Positions 6,459-21,701 of a stretch of DNA of 64,000 nt are shown here, piece by piece. Both the position numbers and the translations under genes were made by a program. The DNA comes from Halogeometricum sp. S3BR5-2 (GTDB taxonomy: Archaea; Halobacteriota; Halobacteria; Halobacteriales; Haloferacaceae). Each line of letters starts with the position of its first letter. Positions within the stretch are counted from its first letter, which is position 1. Location of the stretch: contig NZ_JAMQOQ010000001.1 in NCBI RefSeq assembly GCF_031624635.1, positions 186,001 through 250,000 of the forward strand, written 5' to 3'. The notes below the pieces were generated by a model. The model did no database searches, was not told the DNA's origin, and worked only from the letters and a program-made list of their open reading frames with translations.

Positions 6459-8855
6459 ATGACCTCGTTCCAGTCGACACTCGGCGAGGACGCGGGTATC
6501 GCGGAGGAGTTGGCCGAGAGCCAACGCGCGATATCCATCGCCGAGTTCTTCGAGAAGAACAAGCACATGCTCGGGTTCGACTCGGGGGCGCGAGGCTTGG
6601 TCACCGCCGTGAAGGAGGCGGTCGACAACGCACTCGACGCAACCGAGGAGGCCGGAATCAAGCCCGACATCTCCATCGAAATCCGCGAGGCGGGCGACTA
6701 CTACACGCTCGTGGTCGAGGACAACGGCCCGGGCATCACGAAAGAACAGATTCCGAAGGTGTTCGGGAAACTGCTCTACGGCTCGCGGTTCCACGCGCGC
6801 GAGCAGTCCCGCGGCCAGCAGGGTATCGGCATCTCCGCGGCGGTCCTCTACTCGCAGCTCACCTCCGGGAAGCCCGCGAAAATCACCTCCCGCACGCAGG
6901 GCGACTCGGCGGCGCAGTACTTCGAGCTCATCATCGACACGGACACGAACGAGCCGGAGATTCAGGTCGAGCGCGAACTCGACCCCGGCGAGTCGGAGCT
7001 CTCGCCCACCCACGGCACGCGCATCGAGGTGGAGATGGAGGCGAACATGCGCGCCCGCCAACAGCTCCACGACTACGTCAAGCACACCGCCGTCGTCAAC
7101 CCGCACGCCCGGTTGGTGCTCGACGAACCCGGCCTCGAAGCGCCCGTCCGCTACGAACGGGTCGAGGGCGCGGACCTCCCCGCCGAGACGGAGGAGATAC
7201 GCCCGCACCCCCACGGCGTCGAACTCGGGACGCTCATCAAGATGCTCGGCCGCACCGAGTCCTACTCGGTGTCGGGCTTCCTCCAGGAGGAGTTCACCCG
7301 CGTCGGCGCGAAGACCGCCGACAAGATACTGAACAACTTCCGCGACAGGCACTTCGGACGCGAGATGGGATGGGGAGTCGTCGAGAGCGAGGACGCGGAC
7401 CTCGACGCCGAAATCGAGGACGCCATCGCCAACAAGGGCGCCGAGGCGACGGCGGCGTTCGCCGAACGCGTCGGCGACACGCTCCGGAACCGCGAGCGGA
7501 CGACGCACTTCGAACTCGAGGACATCGTCGACACCGTCGCGGACGACGTCGGCGGGGAACACGGCGTCTCGTTCGGCGACACCGTCCGCGAGAACGCCGT
7601 CGCGGCCGCGTGGGCCGTCCTGACCGAGGGACGGGACCTGTACGCCGTCGTCGACGGGGCGACGAGCACCCAGAAGGACGACGCGACGGTCCGCGGCATC
7701 GCCGACCGCGTCGCAGAGAAGTTCGGCTCGAACGACTCCCACCGCGCGACGAAGGGGCAGGTCCGCGAGTACGTCGACCGCTCGGCCGACGTGCTCGTCT
7801 CCGAGGACGTGACGTTCGGCGACACGGCCCGCGAGAACGTCACCGAAGCGCTGTGGGCGGTCATGCGCACCGTCCCCGACGACGCGCCGAAGGTGAGCGA
7901 CGTGGCCGACGACCGCGATATCGCCTCCGAACTCCTCGAAGCCATGCGCGAGGCCGACATCCTCGCGCCGCCGACGAACTGCCTCTCGCCCATCACCGCG
8001 GAGTTGGTCGAGGCCGGCCTCCGCAAGGAGTACGACGCCGACTTCTACGCCGCGGCGACGCGCGACGCCGAGGTCCACGGCGGCGACCCGTTCATCGTCG
8101 AGGCGGGCATCGCCTACGGCGGCGAACTCTCCGCGGAGGGTTCGGTCGACCTGCTGCGCTTCGCCAACCGCGTCCCCCTCGTCTACCAGCGCGGGGCCTG
8201 CGCGACGACCGACGTGGTGAAACGCATCGGCTGGCGCAACTACGGGCTGGACCAACCGGGCGGCTCCGGCATGCCGAGCGGTCCGGCGGTCATCATGGTC
8301 CACGTCGCCTCCACGAACGTCCCGTTCACCTCCGAGTCGAAGGACGCCCTCGCCAACATCCCCGAGATAGAAGACGAGATAGAACTCGCCATCCGCGAGG
8401 CGGCGCGCGAACTCAAATCCTACCTGAACAAACGCCGCTCGATGCAGAAGCGCCGGAAGAAACAGGACGTGCTCGGGCGCATCCTGCCGGAGATGGCCGA
8501 CAAACTCTCCGAGGTCACGGGCCGCGAACGGCCGAACATCGACGGCGCCTTGGCCCGCATCATGAACAACCTCAGCGTCGACCGGGAGGTGGAGGGCGAC
8601 ACCGTCACCCTCGTCGTGGAGAACCACTCGGACCGCACCGAATCGCCCGACATCACCGACATCGTCTCGGTCGAACCGACGGACGTGCCCGACGGAGCCA
8701 CCGTCGTCGACTTGGACGGCGAGTGGTTCGTCAAGTGGAACCCGTCGGTGTCGGCGGGCGACACCGCCGAACTCAGCTACACCGTCGCCTCGGACGCGTC
8801 GTTCGACATCAACGTCGACGGCGTCGAGACAGAGAAACTCACCGTCAACACCTAA
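6459..8855 (+). CDS. top6B: DNA topoisomerase VI subunit B
   Basis: This is the ATP-binding subunit of topoisomerase VI, a type IIB enzyme that relaxes and decatenates DNA. The start at 6459 ([20 protein letters not shown]) gives 798 residues and leads straight into the family N-terminus '[19 protein letters not shown]'. GHKL motifs are [23 protein letters not shown] and [10 protein letters not shown]. The central helix-two-turn-helix and transducer domains follow, then a C-terminal Ig-like domain. Its stop is 5 bp from top6A, so they form an operon. The region around residues 300-480 carries two repeated '[17 protein letters not shown]'-like segments, which make the protein longer than some archaeal homologs. 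Confidence 0.95.
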
Positions 8856-10885: not shown

Positions 10886-11602
10886 TCAGACCGCGTGGTC
10901 GGTCGGGTCTTCGAGGACGACCGGGATGTGCCGGGAGGCGACGTCCACGACGAACGCTTCGGGGTCGGTCTTCAGCAGGTCGATGGTGTTGTAGTGGACG
11001 GGGAGGACGAGTTCGGGCGCCAACGCCTCCGCGAGGTCCGCCGCCTCGTGGCGGTCCATCACGACGCTGCCGCCGATGTTGGCGAGAAAGAGGTCCACCG
11101 ACAACTGCTCGAACCCCTCCAGCGCGTCGCTGTCGCCCGGCCAGAACACTTTGACGCCGTCCACGGAGAGGAGGTAGGCGCAGCCGAGTCCACGGGGATG
11201 GACGAGGCTGCCGTCGTCGCGGGCGTGGGGGCTGTCCTCCTCGTTGTACGCCGGCAAGGTCCACACGTCGACGGCGCCGACGCTCAGGTGTTCCTCCTCG
11301 CCGACGCGGACCACCTCGTACGGCAGGTCCTCGACGGCCTCCACGTCGCGGTCGATGTTCGCCGGGTTCACCCCCTCGAAGACGAGGACGGTGGCGTCCT
11401 CCTTCGCCACCGAGCGAATCGCGTCGGGGTCGTAGTGGTGGTCGTGCGTGACGCAGACGAGGTCGCCGTCGCGGGCGTGGTAGTCGTCGAGGACGCCGTA
11501 GCGGCCGGGGTCGAGGTAGGCGACGGAACCGGCTTCGGACTCGATTCTGACGGTGGCGTAGCCGAGCCACGAGACTTCGAGGTCGCGGAAAGGAACGGTC
11601 AT
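10886..11602 (-). CDS. metallo-beta-lactamase fold metal-dependent hydrolase (UlaG-like)
   Basis: This 238-residue protein has the layout of the beta-lactamase-like hydrolases that include UlaG. The start at 11602 (MTVPFRDLEVSWLGYATVRI) fits the family N-terminus. Metal-binding residues are in VTHDHHYDP (the HxHxDH-type motif, here H-D-H-H-Y-D), WPGDSDA and the late LPVHYNT. The substrate is unknown; relatives act on lactones, phosphodiesters or N-acyl groups. It lies between an unrelated hydrolase and the ebo-like cluster, and there is no sign that it belongs to either. Confidence 0.8.
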   Translation of the reverse strand: MTVPFRDLEVSWLGYATVRIESEAGSVAYLDPGRYGVLDDYHARDGDLVCVTHDHHYDPDAIRSVAKEDATVLVFEGVNPANIDRDVEAVEDLPYEVVRVGEEEHLSVGAVDVWTLPAYNEEDSPHARDDGSLVHPRGLGCAYLLSVDGVKVFWPGDSDALEGFEQLSVDLFLANIGGSVVMDRHEAADLAEALAPELVLPVHYNTIDLLKTDPEAFVVDVASRHIPVVLEDPTDHAV

Positions 11603-11738
11603 GCCGCACGCTACCGCGCGGAGGGACAAACGCGTTTGGGGTGCGCTGTGACCCGAGTCCGAATCCGCGCCCGGGTCGGGTTCGTCGGTCGAACGGCCGT
11701 CGCCCGCCGACCGCTGGTAGCGCCGGCGCCGCCGCCGC

Positions 11739-13166
11739 TCAGTCGTCGGCGGGCCCCAGTTCGTTCGACGGCGCGAGGATGGACGCGCCCTCGAACTCCA
11801 TGTCGACGGCCTCGCGGACGCCGAGGAGGTCGAGCACCGTGGGGGCGACCTGCCGCATGTCGATGTCGCCGTCGAGGGACAGCGACGGGGCGGCGGGGCC
11901 GCCGACGCCGAAGAACGGCGTCGTCTCGGGGTCGACGCGGCCGTGCGACCCTTTCACCTTCGAGGGGTCCGTCGAGACGAACCCGCCCTCGCCGAGGAAC
12001 AGTTCGCAGGGGTCGTAACCGGGTTTCTCGTGGATGTCGACGCTGTCGGCGTAGGGGGGCGTCGCCTCCTCCTCGCCCTCGTTCCACCAGTAGTAGGCGA
12101 ACCACGCGTCCGGGTCGGCGACGAGGACGAGGTCGCCCGCGCTCTGACTGTCGATACCGTACGCGGCCTGGTCGTCGCCGTCGAGGATGCGCTCGATACC
12201 GTCGAGGGATTCGAGCGCCTCGCGGGCCGTCTCGACGGCCTCGGCGTCGCAGTAGACGTGCGCGACCTGGTGGTCGGCGACGGCGAACGCTTCAGAGGCC
12301 TGGAGGTCCGGAATCTTCCCCTCTTCGTCGCCCTCGGCGTTCTTCGTCTTCATCAGTCCCGCCTCGCGGAGCGCGCGGTTCGGGAAGACGGGCGTCGATA
12401 CCTCGTGGAAACCGTACTCGCTGACGACGACGACGGCCGTCTCGTCCCAGCGGTCGGTGCCTTCGAGGAACCGGAGGTAGTCGCCGACGAGTTCGTCGAT
12501 TTCGGAGAGCGCCTCGGCGAACGCCTCGGAGTTCGGTCCGTGGCTCTGCCCCGTGTAGTCGAGGTGGGGAAGGTACGTCCACAGCATCTCCGGGTCGTAG
12601 CGCTCCGTCGCCTCGCGGGCCGCCGAGAGGATCCACTCGCTGCTCTGAGCGTTCGCGGCCGGCCCCCAGTAGTTGTGCAGGGGGAAGTGACCGTACTCCT
12701 CGCGGAGTTCCTCGTAGAAGTCGTCGGGATTCGTCCAGCAGTTCATCTCGATGAGGTCGTTGTTCTCGTCCTCGATGGGTTTCGGCGTCACCGCCACGTC
12801 GGCCGAGGTGCCGTAGAGATGTTGGAAGAACAGCGCGCCCGTCGTCACCCCGGCCTCGTGCGCGGCCTCCCAGACGCGGTCGCGGTCGCCGCTGTTTCGA
12901 CCCCACAGTTCGACGGTGTCGGTCTCGCGGTCGTACTCCGCGTTCGAGACGTCGCCGTGCGTCGACGGGGAGAGCCCCGTCGAGAGCGTCGTCTGCGAGG
13001 GGATGGTCACCGCCGGGAACGGCGGCACCGCGCCCGTCGTCGCGCCGTCCTCGAACAGACCGGCGAGGTTCGGCGTCGTCTCGGCGTCGACGTGGTCGGG
13101 TTGGAGGCCCACCACGTCGAGGACGACCACGCGGGTCGCCGCCGACGCGTCCGGTTCGCGGGTCAT
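11739..13166 (-). CDS. alkaline-phosphatase-superfamily phosphodiesterase/pyrophosphatase, EboF-like
   Basis: This 475-residue protein has the fold of nucleotide pyrophosphatase / type I phosphodiesterase. The first metal Asp is in VVLDVVGL (Asp17). The nucleophile is a threonine in FPAVTIPSQ (Thr54), as in NPP enzymes. Further metal ligands are in 'HLDYTGQSHGPNS' and in KGSHGRVD. There is no signal peptide or membrane helix, so it is predicted to be cytoplasmic. Its ATG overlaps the inositol-phosphate synthase stop by 4 bp, so they are co-translated. In bacterial ebo operons the EboF product is a phosphatase of this superfamily. The substrate here is unknown, and calling it EboF is inference from family plus neighbourhood. 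Confidence 0.78.
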   Translation of the reverse strand: MTREPDASAATRVVVLDVVGLQPDHVDAETTPNLAGLFEDGATTGAVPPFPAVTIPSQTTLSTGLSPSTHGDVSNAEYDRETDTVELWGRNSGDRDRVWEAAHEAGVTTGALFFQHLYGTSADVAVTPKPIEDENNDLIEMNCWTNPDDFYEELREEYGHFPLHNYWGPAANAQSSEWILSAAREATERYDPEMLWTYLPHLDYTGQSHGPNSEAFAEALSEIDELVGDYLRFLEGTDRWDETAVVVVSEYGFHEVSTPVFPNRALREAGLMKTKNAEGDEEGKIPDLQASEAFAVADHQVAHVYCDAEAVETAREALESLDGIERILDGDDQAAYGIDSQSAGDLVLVADPDAWFAYYWWNEGEEEATPPYADSVDIHEKPGYDPCELFLGEGGFVSTDPSKVKGSHGRVDPETTPFFGVGGPAAPSLSLDGDIDMRQVAPTVLDLLGVREAVDMEFEGASILAPSNELGPADD

Positions 13167-14485
13167 CGCTCAGCCTCCGCGTTCGCGTCCGTGTCCGCGT
13201 TCGCCTCGGCGTCGACACCGACGGCTCCCTCGTCACCGCCGGAACCGTCCGTCCGGACCGCTCCGGCCGGTTCCGCCTCGGCGTCTCGGTGCGCTTCGAC
13301 GTACGATTCCAGCATGGCGAACTGCCGCGAGAGGTCGTGTTCGTCCACGTCCATCGGCTCTTTGAAGAACGAGGCGAGGTGCGTCTGCGTGCCTCCTTCC
13401 CCGCGTTCGTCGGCGTAGGCGACGAGGCGGACGAGGTCCAACACGAGGGGGGCGGCGAGGGCGGAGTCCGCGCCCTGCCAGGTGAACTGGAGGGTCATCT
13501 TCGTGTTCATGAACCCCTCGAAGTGGACGTGGTCCCACGCCGTCTTCCAGTCGCCGAGCGAGGGGGTGTAGTCGATGCGGACGCGGTTGTGTGCGTCGTC
13601 GCCGAGGACCTCCGAGAGCACGCCGCCCTTGCTCTGTAGCTTGCCGGCCTTGTTCTCGTCGTCGTCGAGCACCTTGCCGTCGCCGTTGCCGAGGATGTTG
13701 AACCCGTCCCACGACATGACTCGGAGGTTACGCCCGGCGAACATCGGACCGAGCGCCGTCTTCAGGAGGGTCTCGCCGGTCTTGGCGTCGCGGCCGACGT
13801 GCGGGACGTTCTCCCGGTCGGCCAACTCGCGCAGGCCGCCGAGTTCGCTCCCCGTCGAGGGCGTGAAGTTGACGTACGGGTGGCCGTCGACGAGGGCCGC
13901 GTAGGCGTACAGCGAACTCGCCGGGAGGTCCGCGTCGTCGGCTTCGAGGGCCGACTCGAAGGCGTCGAGCGTGTCGTACCGCTCGGGGTCCCGCACCGGC
14001 GGTTCCGAGGAGGCGAGGTTGACGACGACCAGTCGGTCCACGTCGTGTTCTTCGAGGAAGGCCGCGTAGTCCGCGCGGATCTGTTCGACCACTTCGCTCA
14101 CGCCGCGGTCGCCGTCGACACCGTCGAGGGTGTCCCCGTCGGCGAGGGAGACGGCGCTGCCGCAGTTCCGCGCGGTGCCCGTCTCGACTCGCTCGTCTAT
14201 CCCGCGCAGGTCGTCGGCGACGGCTTCGAGCGTCGCCCGGTCGACGATGCCCGAGTCGGCGAGGTCGGTCGCGGTGTGGAGGAGGGGGCGTTCGGCGATG
14301 TCGTGGCCGGCGAAGACGAACCCGTCGACCGGCGGTAAATTCAGTCGGGTACAGGGTTCGCGGGCCGTGACCATGCCGGTGTCGTCGATCGTCCCGCGGG
14401 CGATTCCGCGCGCCCCGGTGATGGCCGTGGCGGCGACGTTGCCGCGGGCGCCGACGAACCAGACGCCCGTTCGCGTTCGCGTCAT
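13163..14485 (-). CDS. myo-inositol-1-phosphate synthase family protein
   Basis: This 440-residue NAD-dependent enzyme is of the inositol-3-phosphate synthase family, which turns glucose-6-phosphate into inositol phosphate. The start chosen is 14485 (MTRTRTGVWFVGARGN), where the Rossmann strand begins at once. Signatures include the dinucleotide loop VGARGNVAATA, the domain-swap segment 'VNFTPSTGSELGG', the lysine loop GRDAKTGETLLK, and 'GFNILGNGDGKVLDD' with KAGKLQSK. The last 45 residues are a low-complexity Asp/Ala tail unlike the compact end of the archaeal enzyme. It pairs with the EboF-like phosphatase, opposite TatD, TIM-barrel and UbiA genes. In ebo operons a different sugar-phosphate cyclase (EboD) occupies the cyclase role, so this may be its archaeal stand-in. 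Confidence 0.85.
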   Translation of the reverse strand: MTRTRTGVWFVGARGNVAATAITGARGIARGTIDDTGMVTAREPCTRLNLPPVDGFVFAGHDIAERPLLHTATDLADSGIVDRATLEAVADDLRGIDERVETGTARNCGSAVSLADGDTLDGVDGDRGVSEVVEQIRADYAAFLEEHDVDRLVVVNLASSEPPVRDPERYDTLDAFESALEADDADLPASSLYAYAALVDGHPYVNFTPSTGSELGGLRELADRENVPHVGRDAKTGETLLKTALGPMFAGRNLRVMSWDGFNILGNGDGKVLDDDENKAGKLQSKGGVLSEVLGDDAHNRVRIDYTPSLGDWKTAWDHVHFEGFMNTKMTLQFTWQGADSALAAPLVLDLVRLVAYADERGEGGTQTHLASFFKEPMDVDEHDLSRQFAMLESYVEAHRDAEAEPAGAVRTDGSGGDEGAVGVDAEANADTDANAEAER

Positions 14486-14675
14486 ATACCCTCTCACGGG
14501 ACGGAACGGGGTTAGTTATGCATCCGCTTTGCGGGACCGAGGGGTAAATCGCCCTTCCCCCCGCCGATTCAACGACCCGTTAATCGGCCGCTACTCGGGC
14601 GCATCGCGGCGTTTCTCTCGTCGCGAAACCTGTAGGGCAACGGTAACAAAGCGGGGGTGGTCCTCAGTGTCGTCT
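14486..14675. promoter_or_regulatory. divergent promoter region of the ebo-like cluster
   Basis: This 190-bp non-coding gap separates the minus arm (synthase-phosphatase) from the plus arm (TatD-TIM-UbiA-TIM). On the minus strand GCATAACTAACC about 30 bp before the synthase ATG is a plausible TATA region. On the plus strand only a weak GTAACAAAG element is seen about 30 bp before the TatD-like start. A single control region for both arms suggests joint regulation, but this is inferred. Confidence 0.4.
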
Positions 14676-15551
14676 ATGCGTCTCATCGACTCCCACGCGC
14701 ACATGACGTCGCGCACGACCGACGACTACCGCGAGATGCGGCGGTCGGGCATCGAGTGCGTCGTCGAACCCTCGTTCTGGTCGGGGTCGGACAAGCTCTA
14801 CCCCGAGTCGTTCTTCGACTACTTCGAGCACATCCACGACTTCGAGACCGAACGCGCCGACCGCATCGCCGGGATGGACCACTACATCACCGTCTCCATC
14901 AACCCGAAGGAGGCCGTCGACCGCGAGATGTCCGAGGCGGTCATCGACCGACTACCCGAGTACCTCGACCGCGACCGGGTAGTCGGCGTCGGCGAAATCG
15001 GGTTCAACCTCCAGACCGACGAGGAGGAGTGGGCGTTCCGCGAGCAACTCCGAGTCGCCGAGGAGCACGAGGCCCCCGTCATCATCCACCTCCCGCACGA
15101 GGAGAAACCGAAGGGCGCGGTCCGCACCGTCGACATCATCGAGGAGATGGGCGTCACGCAGGAGCGCATCATCATCGACCACAACGAACCCGCGACGATG
15201 GAGACGACGGCCGCCACCGACTGTTGGCTCGGGTTCACGCTCTATCCCGGCAAGATATCCATCGAGGAGGTGATGCCCCTGCTGGAGGAGTACGGCACCG
15301 ACCGGCGCATCATCAACTCCTCGGCCGACTGGGACGACTCGGACCCCCTCGCCGTGCCGAAGGCCCGCGACGCGATGATAGACGCCGGCTGGGACCGAAG
15401 CGAGGTCCGAAAGCTCCTGTTCGAGAACCCCCTGGAGTTCTTCGCGCAGTCCGATAGCTTCGACTACGCGCGGGAGATAGCCGCCGAGTCGTCGACGACC
15501 GAGTCCGCCGCCGGGGCGGCCGAGACCGAACCCGGAACCGAGGCCGAGTAG
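14676..15551 (+). CDS. TatD-family metal-dependent hydrolase, EboB-like
   Basis: This 291-residue amidohydrolase-fold protein starts at 14676 (MRLIDSHAHMTS). The TatD metal site is visible: His7 and His9 in DSHAHM, Glu107 in GVGEIGFN, His138 in IIHLPHEE, His169 in IIIDHNEP and Asp218 in SSADWDDSDP. Classical TatD proteins are Mg-dependent nucleases, but this branch carries no DNA-binding additions and may act on a small molecule. Its stop touches the ATG of the next gene, so translation is coupled. EboB of ebo operons is a TatD-family protein, and the assignment rests on family plus context. The tail is Ala/Glu-rich. Confidence 0.8.
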   Translation: MRLIDSHAHMTSRTTDDYREMRRSGIECVVEPSFWSGSDKLYPESFFDYFEHIHDFETERADRIAGMDHYITVSINPKEAVDREMSEAVIDRLPEYLDRDRVVGVGEIGFNLQTDEEEWAFREQLRVAEEHEAPVIIHLPHEEKPKGAVRTVDIIEEMGVTQERIIIDHNEPATMETTAATDCWLGFTLYPGKISIEEVMPLLEEYGTDRRIINSSADWDDSDPLAVPKARDAMIDAGWDRSEVRKLLFENPLEFFAQSDSFDYAREIAAESSTTESAAGAAETEPGTEAE

Positions 15552-16388
15552 ATGTCCCTGGACTTCGGCTTCTCGATGAACGCCTTCCGGGAGTACTCGA
15601 CCGTCGGCGCCATCGAAGCCGTCGCCGACGCCGGCTACGACGGCATCGAACTGCTGTTCGACGAACCGTTCCTCTACCCGCCGACGGCGACGGGCGAGGA
15701 GTACGACGAGGTGAGAACGGCGCTCGACGCGAACGACATCGCCATCAGCAACTGCAACGCGTTCATGCTGACCGCCATCGAGGACTTCCACCACCCCTCG
15801 TTCGTCGAACCCGACGAGGACTACCGCCGTCGCCGCGTCGACTACACGCTCGACGCCATCGACGCCGCCGCGGAATTCGGCTGCGACCGCATCTCCATCG
15901 AACCCGGCGGGCCCGTCCCCGAGGAGAAATCCCGCGAGTGGGCGATGGACACGTTCGTCGAGGGTCTCGACGAACTCGCGGAACGGGCCGAGGCGAAGGG
16001 CGTCGACGTGATGGTCGAACCCGAACCCGACCTGCTCATCGAGACGTCGGACGAGTACCTCGACCTGATGGACCGCGTCGACTCCGAGCGCATCACCTGC
16101 AACTTCGACGCCGGTCACCTGTTCTGCATGGGCGAGGACCCCGCGGAACTGGTCGAGACGCTCGCCCCCTACACGCGCCACTACCACCTCGAGGACATCC
16201 CCGAGGACCGCTCGCACGAGCACACCCAACTCGGCGACGGCGCGATGGATATCGACGGCTTCCTGCAGGCCGTCGAGGACTCCGGCTACGACGGCTACGT
16301 CACGGTCGAACTCTACCCGTATCAGGAGACGGCCGCCGAGACGGCGCAGGGCGCCATGGACTACCTCCGCGAACGCGGGTGGGCCTGA
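15552..16388 (+). CDS. sugar phosphate isomerase/epimerase-like TIM barrel (AP-endonuclease-2 superfamily), first copy
   Basis: This 278-residue TIM barrel of the xylose-isomerase-like superfamily begins MSLDFGFSMNAFREYS, directly after the TatD-like stop with no gap. Metal-site acids and histidines are recognisable: GYDGIELLFDE near residue 35, ISIEPGG near 120, MVEPEPD near 155, CNFDAGHLF near 185, and HYHLEDIPEDRSHEHTQLGD near 215. Similar proteins isomerise or epimerise sugars and inositols. Together with the inositol-phosphate synthase this suggests an inositol or cyclitol substrate. A second, diverged copy lies two genes downstream. EboE of ebo operons is of this superfamily. Confidence 0.8.
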   Translation: MSLDFGFSMNAFREYSTVGAIEAVADAGYDGIELLFDEPFLYPPTATGEEYDEVRTALDANDIAISNCNAFMLTAIEDFHHPSFVEPDEDYRRRRVDYTLDAIDAAAEFGCDRISIEPGGPVPEEKSREWAMDTFVEGLDELAERAEAKGVDVMVEPEPDLLIETSDEYLDLMDRVDSERITCNFDAGHLFCMGEDPAELVETLAPYTRHYHLEDIPEDRSHEHTQLGDGAMDIDGFLQAVEDSGYDGYVTVELYPYQETAAETAQGAMDYLRERGWA

Positions 16389-16393
16389 GGCCG

Positions 16394-17326
16394 ATGGCCG
16401 CGGGCGTCGGCGACGCGTTCGGGTTCGAGCGGATTCGACGGGTGGCGACCGACTACGCCGAACTCGTCCGACTGCCGAACCTGTTCACCGCGCCGCCCGA
16501 CGTGCTGGCCGGCGCCGCCCTCGCCGTCGCCCTCGGGGCACCGGCCTCGCTTCCGACGGTCGCCGGTCTCTGCGTCGCCTCCGCGTGCGTCTACGCCGCG
16601 GGGACGACGCTGAACGACGCGGCCGACGTCGCAGAAGACGAACGGGAGCGACCCGAACGACCGATTCCGTCCGGGCGAATCGGCCGCGGAAGCGCGCTCG
16701 CCTTCGGCGGTGCGCTCCTCGTCGTCGGCGTCGGCGTCGCCGCGGCCACCGGAGGCGTGCTCCCCGGACTGGTCGCGGCCGCACTCGCCCTCACCGTCGC
16801 CCTGTACGACGGCCTGCTGAAGGGGGGCCCGGCGGGCTTTCTCGCCATGGGCGCGGCTCGCGGACTGAACGTCCTCCTCGGTCTCTCCCTCGCGGGCGCC
16901 GCGGCGTTCGACGCCGTCGGTCTGCTGTTTCCGATAGGAGTCGCCGTCTACGTGGCGGCGTTCACCCGGATGGCCGAGTCGGAGACGGGCGGCGGCGAGG
17001 GGTCCGAAGTCGCCGTCGCCGCCGGGGGCGCGACGCTCGCGGCGATGACCGTCCCCGTCGTCGTCACCGTCCTCGGAACGCCGACACTCGGACTCGCCGC
17101 CACCGTGCTCGCGGCGTGTTTCCTCGCGTGGGACTGGCACGCGCTCGGTCCGGCGATGGCCGACCCCGTCCCCTCGAAGGTCGGACCGGCCGTCGGCACC
17201 TGCGTGCTCGGCATCGTGCTCCTCGACGGCGCCGTCGCCGTCGTCGCCGGGCCGTGGTTCGCCGTCGCCGCCGCGGCGTTCGCGGTGCCGACGCACGTGC
17301 TCTCCGAACGCTTCGACATGAGCTGA
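16394..17326 (+). CDS. UbiA-family prenyltransferase, EboC-like
   Basis: This 310-residue integral membrane protein has about nine hydrophobic segments. It carries the UbiA active-site loop NDAADVAED (Asn74, Asp75, Asp78, Asp82) followed by RERPERPIPSG. The second polar loop is ALYDGLLKGG, an EboC- or chlorophyll-synthase-like variant rather than the DxxYAxxD of UbiA. It should transfer a polyprenyl group from polyprenyl diphosphate to a small acceptor at the membrane face. The start at 16394 is 5 bp after the preceding gene. Flanked by two TIM barrels, it is the only membrane protein of the cluster, so the final product is probably prenylated and membrane-bound. Digeranylgeranylglyceryl phosphate synthase is an alternative, less likely given the neighbours. 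Confidence 0.82.
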   Translation: MAAGVGDAFGFERIRRVATDYAELVRLPNLFTAPPDVLAGAALAVALGAPASLPTVAGLCVASACVYAAGTTLNDAADVAEDERERPERPIPSGRIGRGSALAFGGALLVVGVGVAAATGGVLPGLVAAALALTVALYDGLLKGGPAGFLAMGAARGLNVLLGLSLAGAAAFDAVGLLFPIGVAVYVAAFTRMAESETGGGEGSEVAVAAGGATLAAMTVPVVVTVLGTPTLGLAATVLAACFLAWDWHALGPAMADPVPSKVGPAVGTCVLGIVLLDGAVAVVAGPWFAVAAAAFAVPTHVLSERFDMS

Positions 17327-17341
17327 ACTTACGTACACACT

Positions 17342-18187
17342 ATGAAACTGGCATTCTCCACGAACGCGTACACGAACTACACGCTCCCGGAGGCCGTGCG
17401 TCGCATCGCCGACCACGGCTACGCGGGAGTCGAACTGCTCGGCGACGCGCCGCACGCGTACTTCCCCGAGTTCGACGCGGACGACGAGGCCGCACTCGCC
17501 GACGCCCTCGACGAGACGGGAATCGCCGTCTCGAACGTCAACGCCAATACGGCAATGGGGTACTACCCCGACGCGCCGGAGACGGCCTTCTTCGAACCGA
17601 GCGTCATCAACCCCGACCCGGACCTGCGCGCCTGGCGCGTCGACTACACGAAGCGAGCCGTCGACCTCGCCGAGTCGACGGGCGCGCCGGCGGTCTGTCT
17701 CGCATCCGGGTCTCCCCTGCCGGGGACGCTACCGGAGGAGGCGTACGACCACCTGCTCGCCTCACTGGACGAGATTCTCGACTACGCCGAACCGCGCGGC
17801 GTCGACGTGGGCGTCGAGTTCGAACCCGAACTCCTCGTCGAGTGCACCGACGAGGCGCTCGAACTCGTCGACGACGTGGGTCGGGACGGCTTCGGCATCA
17901 ACCTCGACCTCGGCCACTCGGCCGTCTACGGCGAGGAACTGCGCGAGACGATAGAGAAGGCGGCGGGGCACATCACCGGCGTCCACCTCGAAGACATCGC
18001 CGGCGGCGTCCGCGGGAAGCACTACCACCTCGTCCCCGGCGACGGCGACTTGGACTTCGCCGAGGCGTTCGCGGCCCTGGAGGATATCGGCTACGACGGC
18101 TTCGTCACGCTGGAACTGTACACCTACCCGGACCGCCCCGACGAGGCCGCGAGGCGGGCGTTCGAGGCGCTCGAACGCTACGCGTAA
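17342..18187 (+). CDS. sugar phosphate isomerase/epimerase-like TIM barrel, second copy (EboE-like)
   Basis: This 281-residue TIM barrel starts MKLAFSTNAYTNYTLP and is a paralog of the protein encoded two genes upstream. Conserved positions include GYAGVELLGDAPH near residue 28, VEFEPELL near 160, INLDLGHSAVYG near 185 and VHLEDIAGGVRGKHYH near 215, all expected divalent-metal or substrate contacts. It closes the plus arm 15 bp after the UbiA gene and converges on the ligase gene. The opening FSTNAYTNY resembles EboE-type proteins, so this copy may be the true EboE equivalent, but that needs a tree. The product is unknown. Confidence 0.8.
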   Translation: MKLAFSTNAYTNYTLPEAVRRIADHGYAGVELLGDAPHAYFPEFDADDEAALADALDETGIAVSNVNANTAMGYYPDAPETAFFEPSVINPDPDLRAWRVDYTKRAVDLAESTGAPAVCLASGSPLPGTLPEEAYDHLLASLDEILDYAEPRGVDVGVEFEPELLVECTDEALELVDDVGRDGFGINLDLGHSAVYGEELRETIEKAAGHITGVHLEDIAGGVRGKHYHLVPGDGDLDFAEAFAALEDIGYDGFVTLELYTYPDRPDEAARRAFEALERYA

Positions 18188-20171: not shown

Positions 20172-21701
20172 ATGAGCGACGAGCTTGCGGACAGAGTCCG
20201 CGACGTGCTCGCCGTCGACGCCGAGGAGTACCAGGCGCAGGCGGAGGCAGACGCGGAGGTGGTCAAATCCGAGTTGGCGGCCGGCACGTTCGACAACCAC
20301 CAGTCCATCGTCGGACTGGAGTACGAGTTCTACGCCGTCGCGGACGGCCGGTGGGCCTCCGAGGAGACCGAGAGCAACGGTCTCATGCGGGTCCCCCGCC
20401 GACTGCTCGAACTCATCGGCTTCGAGAAGGAACTCGGGCTCCACAACGCCGAGATGACGACGAGCCCGCAGCCGCTGAACCCCCACGGCCTCCGCGCGCA
20501 GGAGTCGGAGGTGCTCGCCCGCCTCACCGCCGCGCTCCAGTGCACCTCCTCGGAGGGGATGCGCCTCGTCAGCGACGGCATCTGGACCATCCCGCCGCGG
20601 GGAGAGACGGCCGAGGGCTACCTCACCGACAGCATCGACGACGGCGGCATCCGCGTCGCCACGAACATGACCGACGCCGTCCGCTACCACGCGATGGCGA
20701 ACGGCGAACACCCGGTCGACCAGATGTCCGTCGACGCCCCGCACGTCGAACTCGACGCCGACACGGTGATGCCCGAGTCGCTCATCACCTCCATCCAACC
20801 GCACTACCAGGTCGCTCACGCCGCGGACCTCCCCATCTACTTCAACTACGCGCTCCGCGTCGCCGGGCCGCTCCTCGCACTCGGCGTCAACTCGCCGTTC
20901 TTCCCGCCGGACCTCTACGACGACGCCGCCCCGGAGGAGATTATCGCCGACGCCCACATGGAGAACCGCATCGCCGTCTTCGAGTCCGTCCTCAACGGCG
21001 AGGACGCGGAGAAGGTTCGCTTCCCCGACGACCTGCCCGACGTGGAGACGGCCGTCGACCGGGTGGCCGCCGACGCGACTATCGTACCGATGCCCGTCCC
21101 GCGCGGCGACCGCTTCGACGACTCCTTCGCCACGCTCCGCCGCAAGCACGGCACCTTCTGGCGGTGGGTCCGCCCGGTGTTCGACGGGGCGACGCGCTCC
21201 TCGGCGAACGCCCGCATCGAGTTCCGGCCCATCGCCGCCCAGCCTACGGTCCGCGACTCCGTGGCGTTTCAGGCGGCGTTCGCCGGCCTGATGGAGAGCC
21301 TCCCGAAGCGAGAGCACCCCGTCATCAATCAGGACTGGGCGACGGCCAAGGAGAACTTCTACGCCGCGATGCGCGACGGGTTCGACAGCGGGCAGCGCTG
21401 GGTCGCCAACGACGGCCACGAGACGACGAATCCCGTCGAGGTGTACGACGACATCCTCGCGCACGCCGTCGACGGACTGAAGTCCGCGGGCTGTTCGGAG
21501 GCCGAGGCCGACCGATACGTCGCCCCCCTGCGCGTCCGCGCCGAGGCGGGCCAGACGCCCGCCGGGTGGAAGGTCGACCGGGTCCGCGAGCGACTCGCCG
21601 ACGGCGCCGACTTCGAGACGGCCGTCTACGAGATGCAACGGGACTACATCGGGCGGCAGACCGAGACGCTGTTGGAAGGCTCGTTCGCCGACTGGGTGTA
21701 G
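20172..21701 (+). CDS. GCS2-superfamily carboxylate-amine ligase-like protein
   Basis: This 509-residue protein resembles the glutamate-cysteine ligase type 2 superfamily. An early SIVGLEYEFYAV (residue about 45) recalls the GVEEEF motif, LHNAEMTTSPQP follows, and a late 'FRPIAAQPTVRDSVAFQAAF' matches the family's RPxxxQPT element. It is much longer than the haloarchaeal GshA I know of (about 360 residues). It may therefore make a different gamma-glutamyl product, or be a second ligase. It is divergent from the DNA ligase gene and stands alone. The function is uncertain; the superfamily is reasonably clear. Confidence 0.6.
   Translation: MSDELADRVRDVLAVDAEEYQAQAEADAEVVKSELAAGTFDNHQSIVGLEYEFYAVADGRWASEETESNGLMRVPRRLLELIGFEKELGLHNAEMTTSPQPLNPHGLRAQESEVLARLTAALQCTSSEGMRLVSDGIWTIPPRGETAEGYLTDSIDDGGIRVATNMTDAVRYHAMANGEHPVDQMSVDAPHVELDADTVMPESLITSIQPHYQVAHAADLPIYFNYALRVAGPLLALGVNSPFFPPDLYDDAAPEEIIADAHMENRIAVFESVLNGEDAEKVRFPDDLPDVETAVDRVAADATIVPMPVPRGDRFDDSFATLRRKHGTFWRWVRPVFDGATRSSANARIEFRPIAAQPTVRDSVAFQAAFAGLMESLPKREHPVINQDWATAKENFYAAMRDGFDSGQRWVANDGHETTNPVEVYDDILAHAVDGLKSAGCSEAEADRYVAPLRVRAEAGQTPAGWKVDRVRERLADGADFETAVYEMQRDYIGRQTETLLEGSFADWV

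Follow-up and report, generated by a model that had tools for sequence, protein, structure and literature searches.

Within a window of 64,000 nucleotides from the haloarchaeon Halogeometricum sp. S3BR5-2 (contig NZ_JAMQOQ010000001.1, positions 186,001 to 250,000; genome of 4.66 Mb), positions 11739-18187 hold six intact reading frames in two divergent arms, as judged by open reading frame analysis and Pfam. The minus-strand arm encodes an EboF-like protein of the AP superfamily and an inositol-phosphate synthase (MIPS), and the plus-strand arm encodes, in this order, an EboB-like TatD protein, a first TIM barrel (TIM1), an EboC-like UbiA protein and a second TIM barrel (TIM2). The set is very probably a variant of the ebo gene cluster in which MIPS occupies the place of the cyclase EboD. 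The preliminary description of this DNA had named six genes, two arms and these families, and every family was confirmed by Pfam. The spacing inside the arms is operon-like, with a 4-bp overlap and gaps of 0, 5 and 15 bp, and most other haloarchaeal carriers show comparably tight spacing within the arms. A scan of the divergent region for bacterial promoters and terminators, with archaeal promoters outside its scope, gave no match, and a bare search for TATA-like sequences was uninformative there. The coordinates are collected in Table 1.

Table 1. Features of the cluster and of one adjoining gene, in positions of the window.
Feature	Coordinates	Strand	Domain evidence	Remarks
EboF-like AP-superfamily (NPP-fold) protein	11739..13166	-	PF01663, 183 bits	475 aa
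MIPS-family cyclase	13163..14485	-	PF07994, PF01658	EboD position; alternative start GTG at 14497 upstream
Intergenic region between the arms	14486..14675			190 bp; presumed to hold both promoters
EboB-like TatD-family metallohydrolase	14676..15551	+	PF01026, 58 bits	
TIM1, EboE-related xylose-isomerase-like isomerase	15552..16388	+	PF01261, 172 bits	
EboC/SCO3242-type UbiA-superfamily membrane prenyltransferase	16394..17326	+	PF01040	
TIM2, ketose-3-epimerase-fold isomerase	17342..18187	+	PF01261, 157 bits	Extra barrel of MIPS-type clusters
Metallo-beta-lactamase-fold hydrolase (PRK00685-like)	10886..11629	-		Possible accessory; 109 bp downstream of the AP gene

Among 242 genomes of Halobacteria, an orthologue of the UbiA protein was found in 28, and a MIPS orthologue in the same 28 and in one more (G208), a co-occurrence with a Fisher p of 8e-36 in which kinship is not corrected for. 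The preliminary description had made its case depend on the six genes being kept together in other genomes. Based on tblastn of the fetched loci, 26 of the 28 carriers have them all together at a single place, and 25 of these 26 intact loci retain the divergent layout. One carrier (G183) has the six genes on a single strand, another (G020) has a dispersed and incomplete set, and a third (G209) has two copies of the cluster that are interrupted by contig ends. The carriers span 13 genera in a patchy manner, amounting to about 12% of the haloarchaeal genomes, and include Halorubrum saccharovorum, Halococcus morrhuae, Halococcus thailandensis, Haloferax massiliensis, Haloferax prahovense and Halorussus marinus. 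Copies on plasmids occur in Natronococcus and Halobaculum; a tblastn search of plasmids with the UbiA protein had almost no sensitivity, probably as a result of the low-complexity filter of BLAST. The flanking LigA gene and the gene at 20172-21701 are common only to a genome of the same genus, and the flanks otherwise change. A chance neighbourhood is ruled out because the genes are inherited together while their flanks change.

Three loci depart from the common pattern. In G208 and in Halorussus aquaticus a MIPS of the haloarchaeal ebo clade occurs and the other cluster genes are not nearby. A plasmid of Haladaptatus pallidirubidus carries five of the six genes, with no MIPS found alongside and a gap of about 0.9 kb between the AP and TatD genes.

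The assignment to ebo rests on the individual proteins. The UbiA protein scores 172 bits against the NCBIfam EboC model and 165 bits against SCO3242, versus 57-59 bits for the DGGGP-type models. In the tree it falls in the clade of bacterial Ebo UbiA proteins with a support of 99/99, apart from all paralogues of its own genome, which comprise the DGGGP synthase (identified by NF009521 at 314 bits), two heme O synthases, MenA and a PRK12875 protein that we take to be a prenyltransferase of the lycopene-elongase type. The first Asp motif, NDxxDxxxD, is retained, and the second is replaced, as it is in the bacterial Ebo UbiA proteins. The placement in the Ebo clade and the missing second Asp motif rule out a DGGGP synthase, a grouping on which the preliminary description had staked its proposal and from which the protein stands apart in the tree. 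Flavobacterial EboC homologues farnesylate 8-hydroxyquinoline-2-carboxylic acid in vitro (PMC9235831), which by analogy supports prenyl transfer as the type of reaction that an EboC-type UbiA would carry out and has no bearing on a cyclitol as acceptor. Elsewhere in the same genome (contig C4, 9000-28000), two UbiA-family matches surround a TIM barrel and an oxidoreductase-like gene; no close similarity was found between the proteins of that locus and those of the cluster.

The TatD-like protein is 42% identical to EboB of a Streptomyces cluster, and its metal ligands (HxH, E, H, H, D) are invariant. It clusters with EboB proteins in a tree that roots poorly because two paralogues from its own genome sit on branches of 6.6-8.6. 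The metal ligands of the TIM barrels are conserved as well. The two isomerases of the preliminary description are both present, but they are not equivalent. TIM1 belongs to a clade with EboE and with TIM1 proteins of Deltaproteobacteria and planctomycetes (96/97), in which the EboE branch has a length of about 5, and at about 280 residues it is shorter than EboE with about 380. TIM2 falls in a separate clade with deltaproteobacterial TIM2 proteins encoded next to MIPS (98/96), and its structural model (pLDDT of 91) matches ketose 3-epimerases with Z scores of 30-31.

The EboF-like protein has 38-39% identity with EboF-type proteins of bacteria, among which it groups at 100/100, away from the paralogues of its own genome. 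Its motifs PHLDY, SEYG, DHQxAHxY, IHxKPGxDPxELF and GSHG recur in the nine bacterial EboF proteins compared, with GTHG for GSHG in two. The predicted structure is nearest to ENPP6 and a bacterial NPP, with Z scores of about 31, so the AP-superfamily protein of the preliminary description has the NPP fold. Since the model is of moderate confidence (pLDDT of 70.7), the changes in the metal ligands were judged by sequence alignment. In a profile alignment to 2gsn, the NPP of Xanthomonas, four of the six metal ligands are replaced (D54 by V, H214 by Q or another residue, D257 by E and H258 by Y, in the established numbering of NPP enzymes), whereas the nucleophile T and two metal ligands are kept. 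The replacement of SDHG by SEYG indicates that the metal site is rewired, and the nine bacterial EboF proteins show a similar loss of the four ligands. The role of the protein as an ordinary phosphatase is therefore uncertain, the dephosphorylation step of the preliminary description finds no support in the sequence, and with four metal ligands lost an annotation of EboF as a phosphodiesterase should not be trusted at face value.

Then, what does the cyclase do? The MIPS protein gives a full-length profile match to the Archaeoglobus fulgidus MIPS 1u1i (E value of 8.6e-113), and the equivalents of the catalytic lysines, K282, K286, K314 and K375, are invariant together with N263; they include the residues mutated in 3qvw and 3qvx. 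It is the sole MIPS of the genome. No ebo context was found beside the MIPS genes of Archaeoglobaceae. From this conservation the cluster cyclase is predicted, with considerable confidence, to have MIPS activity. Such an enzyme could simply supply inositol for an archaetidylinositol-type phospholipid headgroup or for a soluble solute, the other five genes being loosely related neighbours. Inositol phospholipids occur in other archaea, and the full-length likeness to the Archaeoglobus enzyme speaks for this explanation. It is nevertheless quite improbable, given the near-perfect co-inheritance with UbiA and the linkage to the five other genes. The haloarchaeal MIPS proteins, in addition, form a single clade (100/100) outside the clade of Archaeoglobaceae. 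Furthermore, the six genes include no CDP-alcohol phosphotransferase, an enzyme for which no genome-wide search was made.

The canonical operon eboABCDEF occurs in Bacteroidota, Cyanobacteria and eustigmatophyte plastids (PMC5133447). The haloarchaeal cluster resembles it in its homologues of EboB (TatD), EboC (UbiA) and EboF (NPP fold), in its EboE-related barrel and in its tight clustering, whereas the canonical operon has EboA, EboD and an EboE of about 380 residues in place of MIPS, an extra TIM barrel and divergent arms. EboA was not found in the 29 carrier genomes with the model NF035938, in a search whose genome-level form had no positive genome as a control and which a distant, fast-diverging EboA could escape; the model recognises EboA proteins of Streptomyces (172 bits) and Azospirillum (151 bits). 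A search with PF01761 gave matches in 11 control genomes and did not find an EboD-type cyclase in the 29 carriers, save two weak matches of 25.5 and 21.1 bits. The preliminary description had held that the genes are related to ebo, that EboA is not seen and that EboD is replaced by the MIPS family, and the results agree with it: the counterparts of EboB, EboC and EboF are homologous, TIM1 appears to be related to EboE, and MIPS stands in the place of EboD with no clear PF01761 match in the carriers. Because neither EboA nor EboD was found, the cluster is filed as an ebo variant and is not a canonical ebo operon. In the two main ebo papers no reference to an inositol synthase or to archaeal ebo genes was found, and a literature search, with most subscription journals outside its reach, found no account of an archaeal or a MIPS-type ebo cluster.

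The exchange of the cyclase had been presented as something seen in a haloarchaeon. It is indeed present there, but it is not peculiar to haloarchaea, as several bacterial phyla have the same swap. Loci of Actinomycetota, Gemmatimonadota, Planctomycetota, Rokubacteria and Deltaproteobacteria have MIPS genes beside ebo-type genes and, as a rule, a second TIM barrel as well; the examples, of varying completeness, come from Streptomyces, Nonomuraea, Acrocarpospora, a Gemmatirosa plasmid, Gemmatimonadota contigs, Rokubacteria, Planctomycetales and Deltaproteobacteria. On Streptomyces plasmids one run holds MIPS, an SCO3242-type UbiA, a TIM barrel, EboA, TatD, EboE and an EboF-type protein. Pieces of the Streptomyces clusters are annotated by NCBI (SCO3242-type, EboA, EboE), and no account of the whole Streptomyces MIPS-type cluster was found. 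Genes of this kind are presumably also present in the CDA cluster region of S. coelicolor (SCO3240s). Four actinobacterial loci share with the haloarchaeal cluster MIPS (44-45% identical), the SCO3242-family UbiA, two TIM barrels, TatD and the EboF-type protein (38-39%), but they have EboA and a full-length EboE of their own, and their second barrel, TIMa, belongs to a clade other than that of TIM2. Five deltaproteobacterial MIPS-TIM2-TIM1 loci have the same types of barrel (43-49% identical) following the MIPS gene; they differ in running in a single direction, and UbiA and TatD stand alongside only in some deltaproteobacterial loci (both in L146), with TIM1 missing from L186. No EboF-type protein was found beside the deltaproteobacterial MIPS-TIM2-TIM1 loci.

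The number of TIM barrels may follow the cyclase. In the EboD-type clusters of Azospirillum, Deinococcus, Mycetohabitans, Aureibacter, Roseivivax, Ketogulonicigenium and Salipiger, EboE is the only barrel inside the cluster; in Ketogulonicigenium another isomerase gene adjoins it. Where the contigs extend far enough to tell, MIPS-type loci for the most part contain two barrels, either EboE or TIM1 together with TIMa or TIM2. Since this sample is small and non-random, a rule that MIPS means two TIM barrels is only a lead. In two Gemmataceae loci a MIPS gene and a gene for an EboD-like cyclase are about 2 kb apart, which may hint at the way in which one cyclase was exchanged for the other. A distinct MIPS cluster, with genes for YcaO, a Gfo/Idh/MocA oxidoreductase, a sugar isomerase and a PIG-L deacetylase, was seen on plasmids of Hymenobacter and Roseomonas.

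The genes around the cluster bring in another explanation, in which a sugar- or inositol-catabolic system oxidises carbohydrates outside the cell with secreted dehydrogenases and processes the products inside with the TIM barrels and hydrolases. In Halococcus, Halorussus, Halorubrum, Natronococcus and further genera the cluster is adjoined by secreted GSDH-type sugar dehydrogenases, in many cases together with cupredoxin or 3-keto-disaccharide hydrolase domains, and nine such loci were noted, with the genes beside or inside the cluster. At the superfamily level, moreover, both TIM barrels are similar to sugar epimerases and to inosose enzymes. This explanation is improbable even so, as MIPS is a biosynthetic enzyme, the conserved core has neither a transporter nor a dehydrogenase, and it is not apparent what a UbiA membrane protein would do in catabolism. 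No GSDH-type or similar neighbours were seen among the genes directly flanking the cluster of the window. GSDH genes are found in 226 of the 242 haloarchaeal genomes, so their presence in a genome is uninformative, it is adjacency that counts, and the link may be incidental. In bacteria, a PQQ-dependent dehydrogenase adjoins the Salipiger cluster and a protein of the ScyD/ScyE family adjoins one Streptomyces cluster. The PRK00685-like gene of the window has homologues next to the cluster, so that it occurs there in 6 loci from two genera, on opposite flanks and outside the conserved core. Farther away, ARAGORN called a tRNA-Pro (anticodon agg) at 7203-7296 inside a long open frame, which is probably a false positive.

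Taken together, we consider a haloarchaeal MIPS-type ebo variant that makes an inositol-derived product the likely reading of the locus. MIPS would convert glucose-6-phosphate to inositol monophosphate, which TIM1, TIM2 and the TatD-type metallohydrolase, all of them metal-dependent, would remodel to a ring compound equivalent to the starting point of the EboD-type clusters; the extra TIM barrel of the MIPS-type clusters would thus bridge the difference between inositol and the EboD product. Prenylation by the EboC-type UbiA would follow in the membrane. The EboF-type protein would act on a phosphorylated intermediate or serve as a component in binding or assembly, rather than as an ordinary phosphodiesterase. 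That the product is inositol-derived and prenylated is a plausible guess from the protein families, falling somewhat short of probable, and a role in traffic or in extracytoplasmic chemistry is put forward a little more tentatively still.

In Nostoc, delivery of the scytonemin monomer to the periplasm requires each of eboA, B, C, E and F, and the deletions revealed no intermediates specific to single genes (PMC6282210). The component families are homologous to those of the haloarchaeal cluster, but the individual deletion phenotypes are those of Nostoc punctiforme, which has EboA and an EboD-type cyclase and whose cargo, the scytonemin monomer, haloarchaea are not known to make. The Nostoc results can also be read, as has been proposed there, as a membrane-associated machine for metabolite traffic, in which the enzymatic ancestry of the components carries little weight; the EboF protein without most of its NPP metal ligands and the UbiA protein without its second Asp motif would fit such a machine. 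We regard this as unlikely for the haloarchaeal cluster, since the catalytic lysines of MIPS and the metal ligands of the TIM barrels and TatD are conserved, which argues for real chemistry, and a structural role alone would leave the swap of the cyclase and the extra isomerase unexplained.

Several observations weigh against the preferred reading of an inositol-derived product of an ebo variant. To our knowledge, no activity, product or phenotype is on record for any MIPS-type cluster. TIM1 is a weak match to the NCBIfam EboE model (32 bits against a curated cut-off of 250), and its union with EboE may be an artefact of long-branch attraction given the length of the EboE branch. The UbiA protein at 172 bits likewise stays below the curated EboC cut-off of 250, and the second Asp motif is gone from it. 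The haloarchaeal MIPS is not placed beside any bacterial ebo MIPS; as the deep branching of that tree is unresolved, the donor and the direction of transfer cannot be named. Finally, the only EboC homologues that have been assayed use quinolines, not cyclitols, as acceptors of the farnesyl group (PMC9235831).

The neighbouring genes also invite a broader view, in which MIPS-type and EboD-type ebo clusters form one cross-domain pathway to a cyclitol-derived prenylated cofactor or carrier that serves secreted beta-propeller oxidoreductases. It draws on the haloarchaeal GSDH proteins, the PQQ-dependent dehydrogenase of Salipiger, the ScyD/ScyE-like neighbour of one Streptomyces cluster and ScyE in scytonemin-forming cyanobacteria, and we offer it as a speculation that has only a slim chance of being correct.

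The ebo pathway is widespread, its phenotype in Nostoc is strong, and its product is still not known. With the haloarchaeal cluster the ebo system reaches into the archaea, among them named Haloferax species, and their sister Hfx. volcanii is well suited to genetic work. Should the two cyclases supply one set of downstream enzymes, a common intermediate would have to be accessible from inositol phosphate through a single additional isomerase. The swap of the cyclase to a well-understood chemistry would thereby narrow the possible first intermediate of ebo and may provide a tractable entry point to the pathway.

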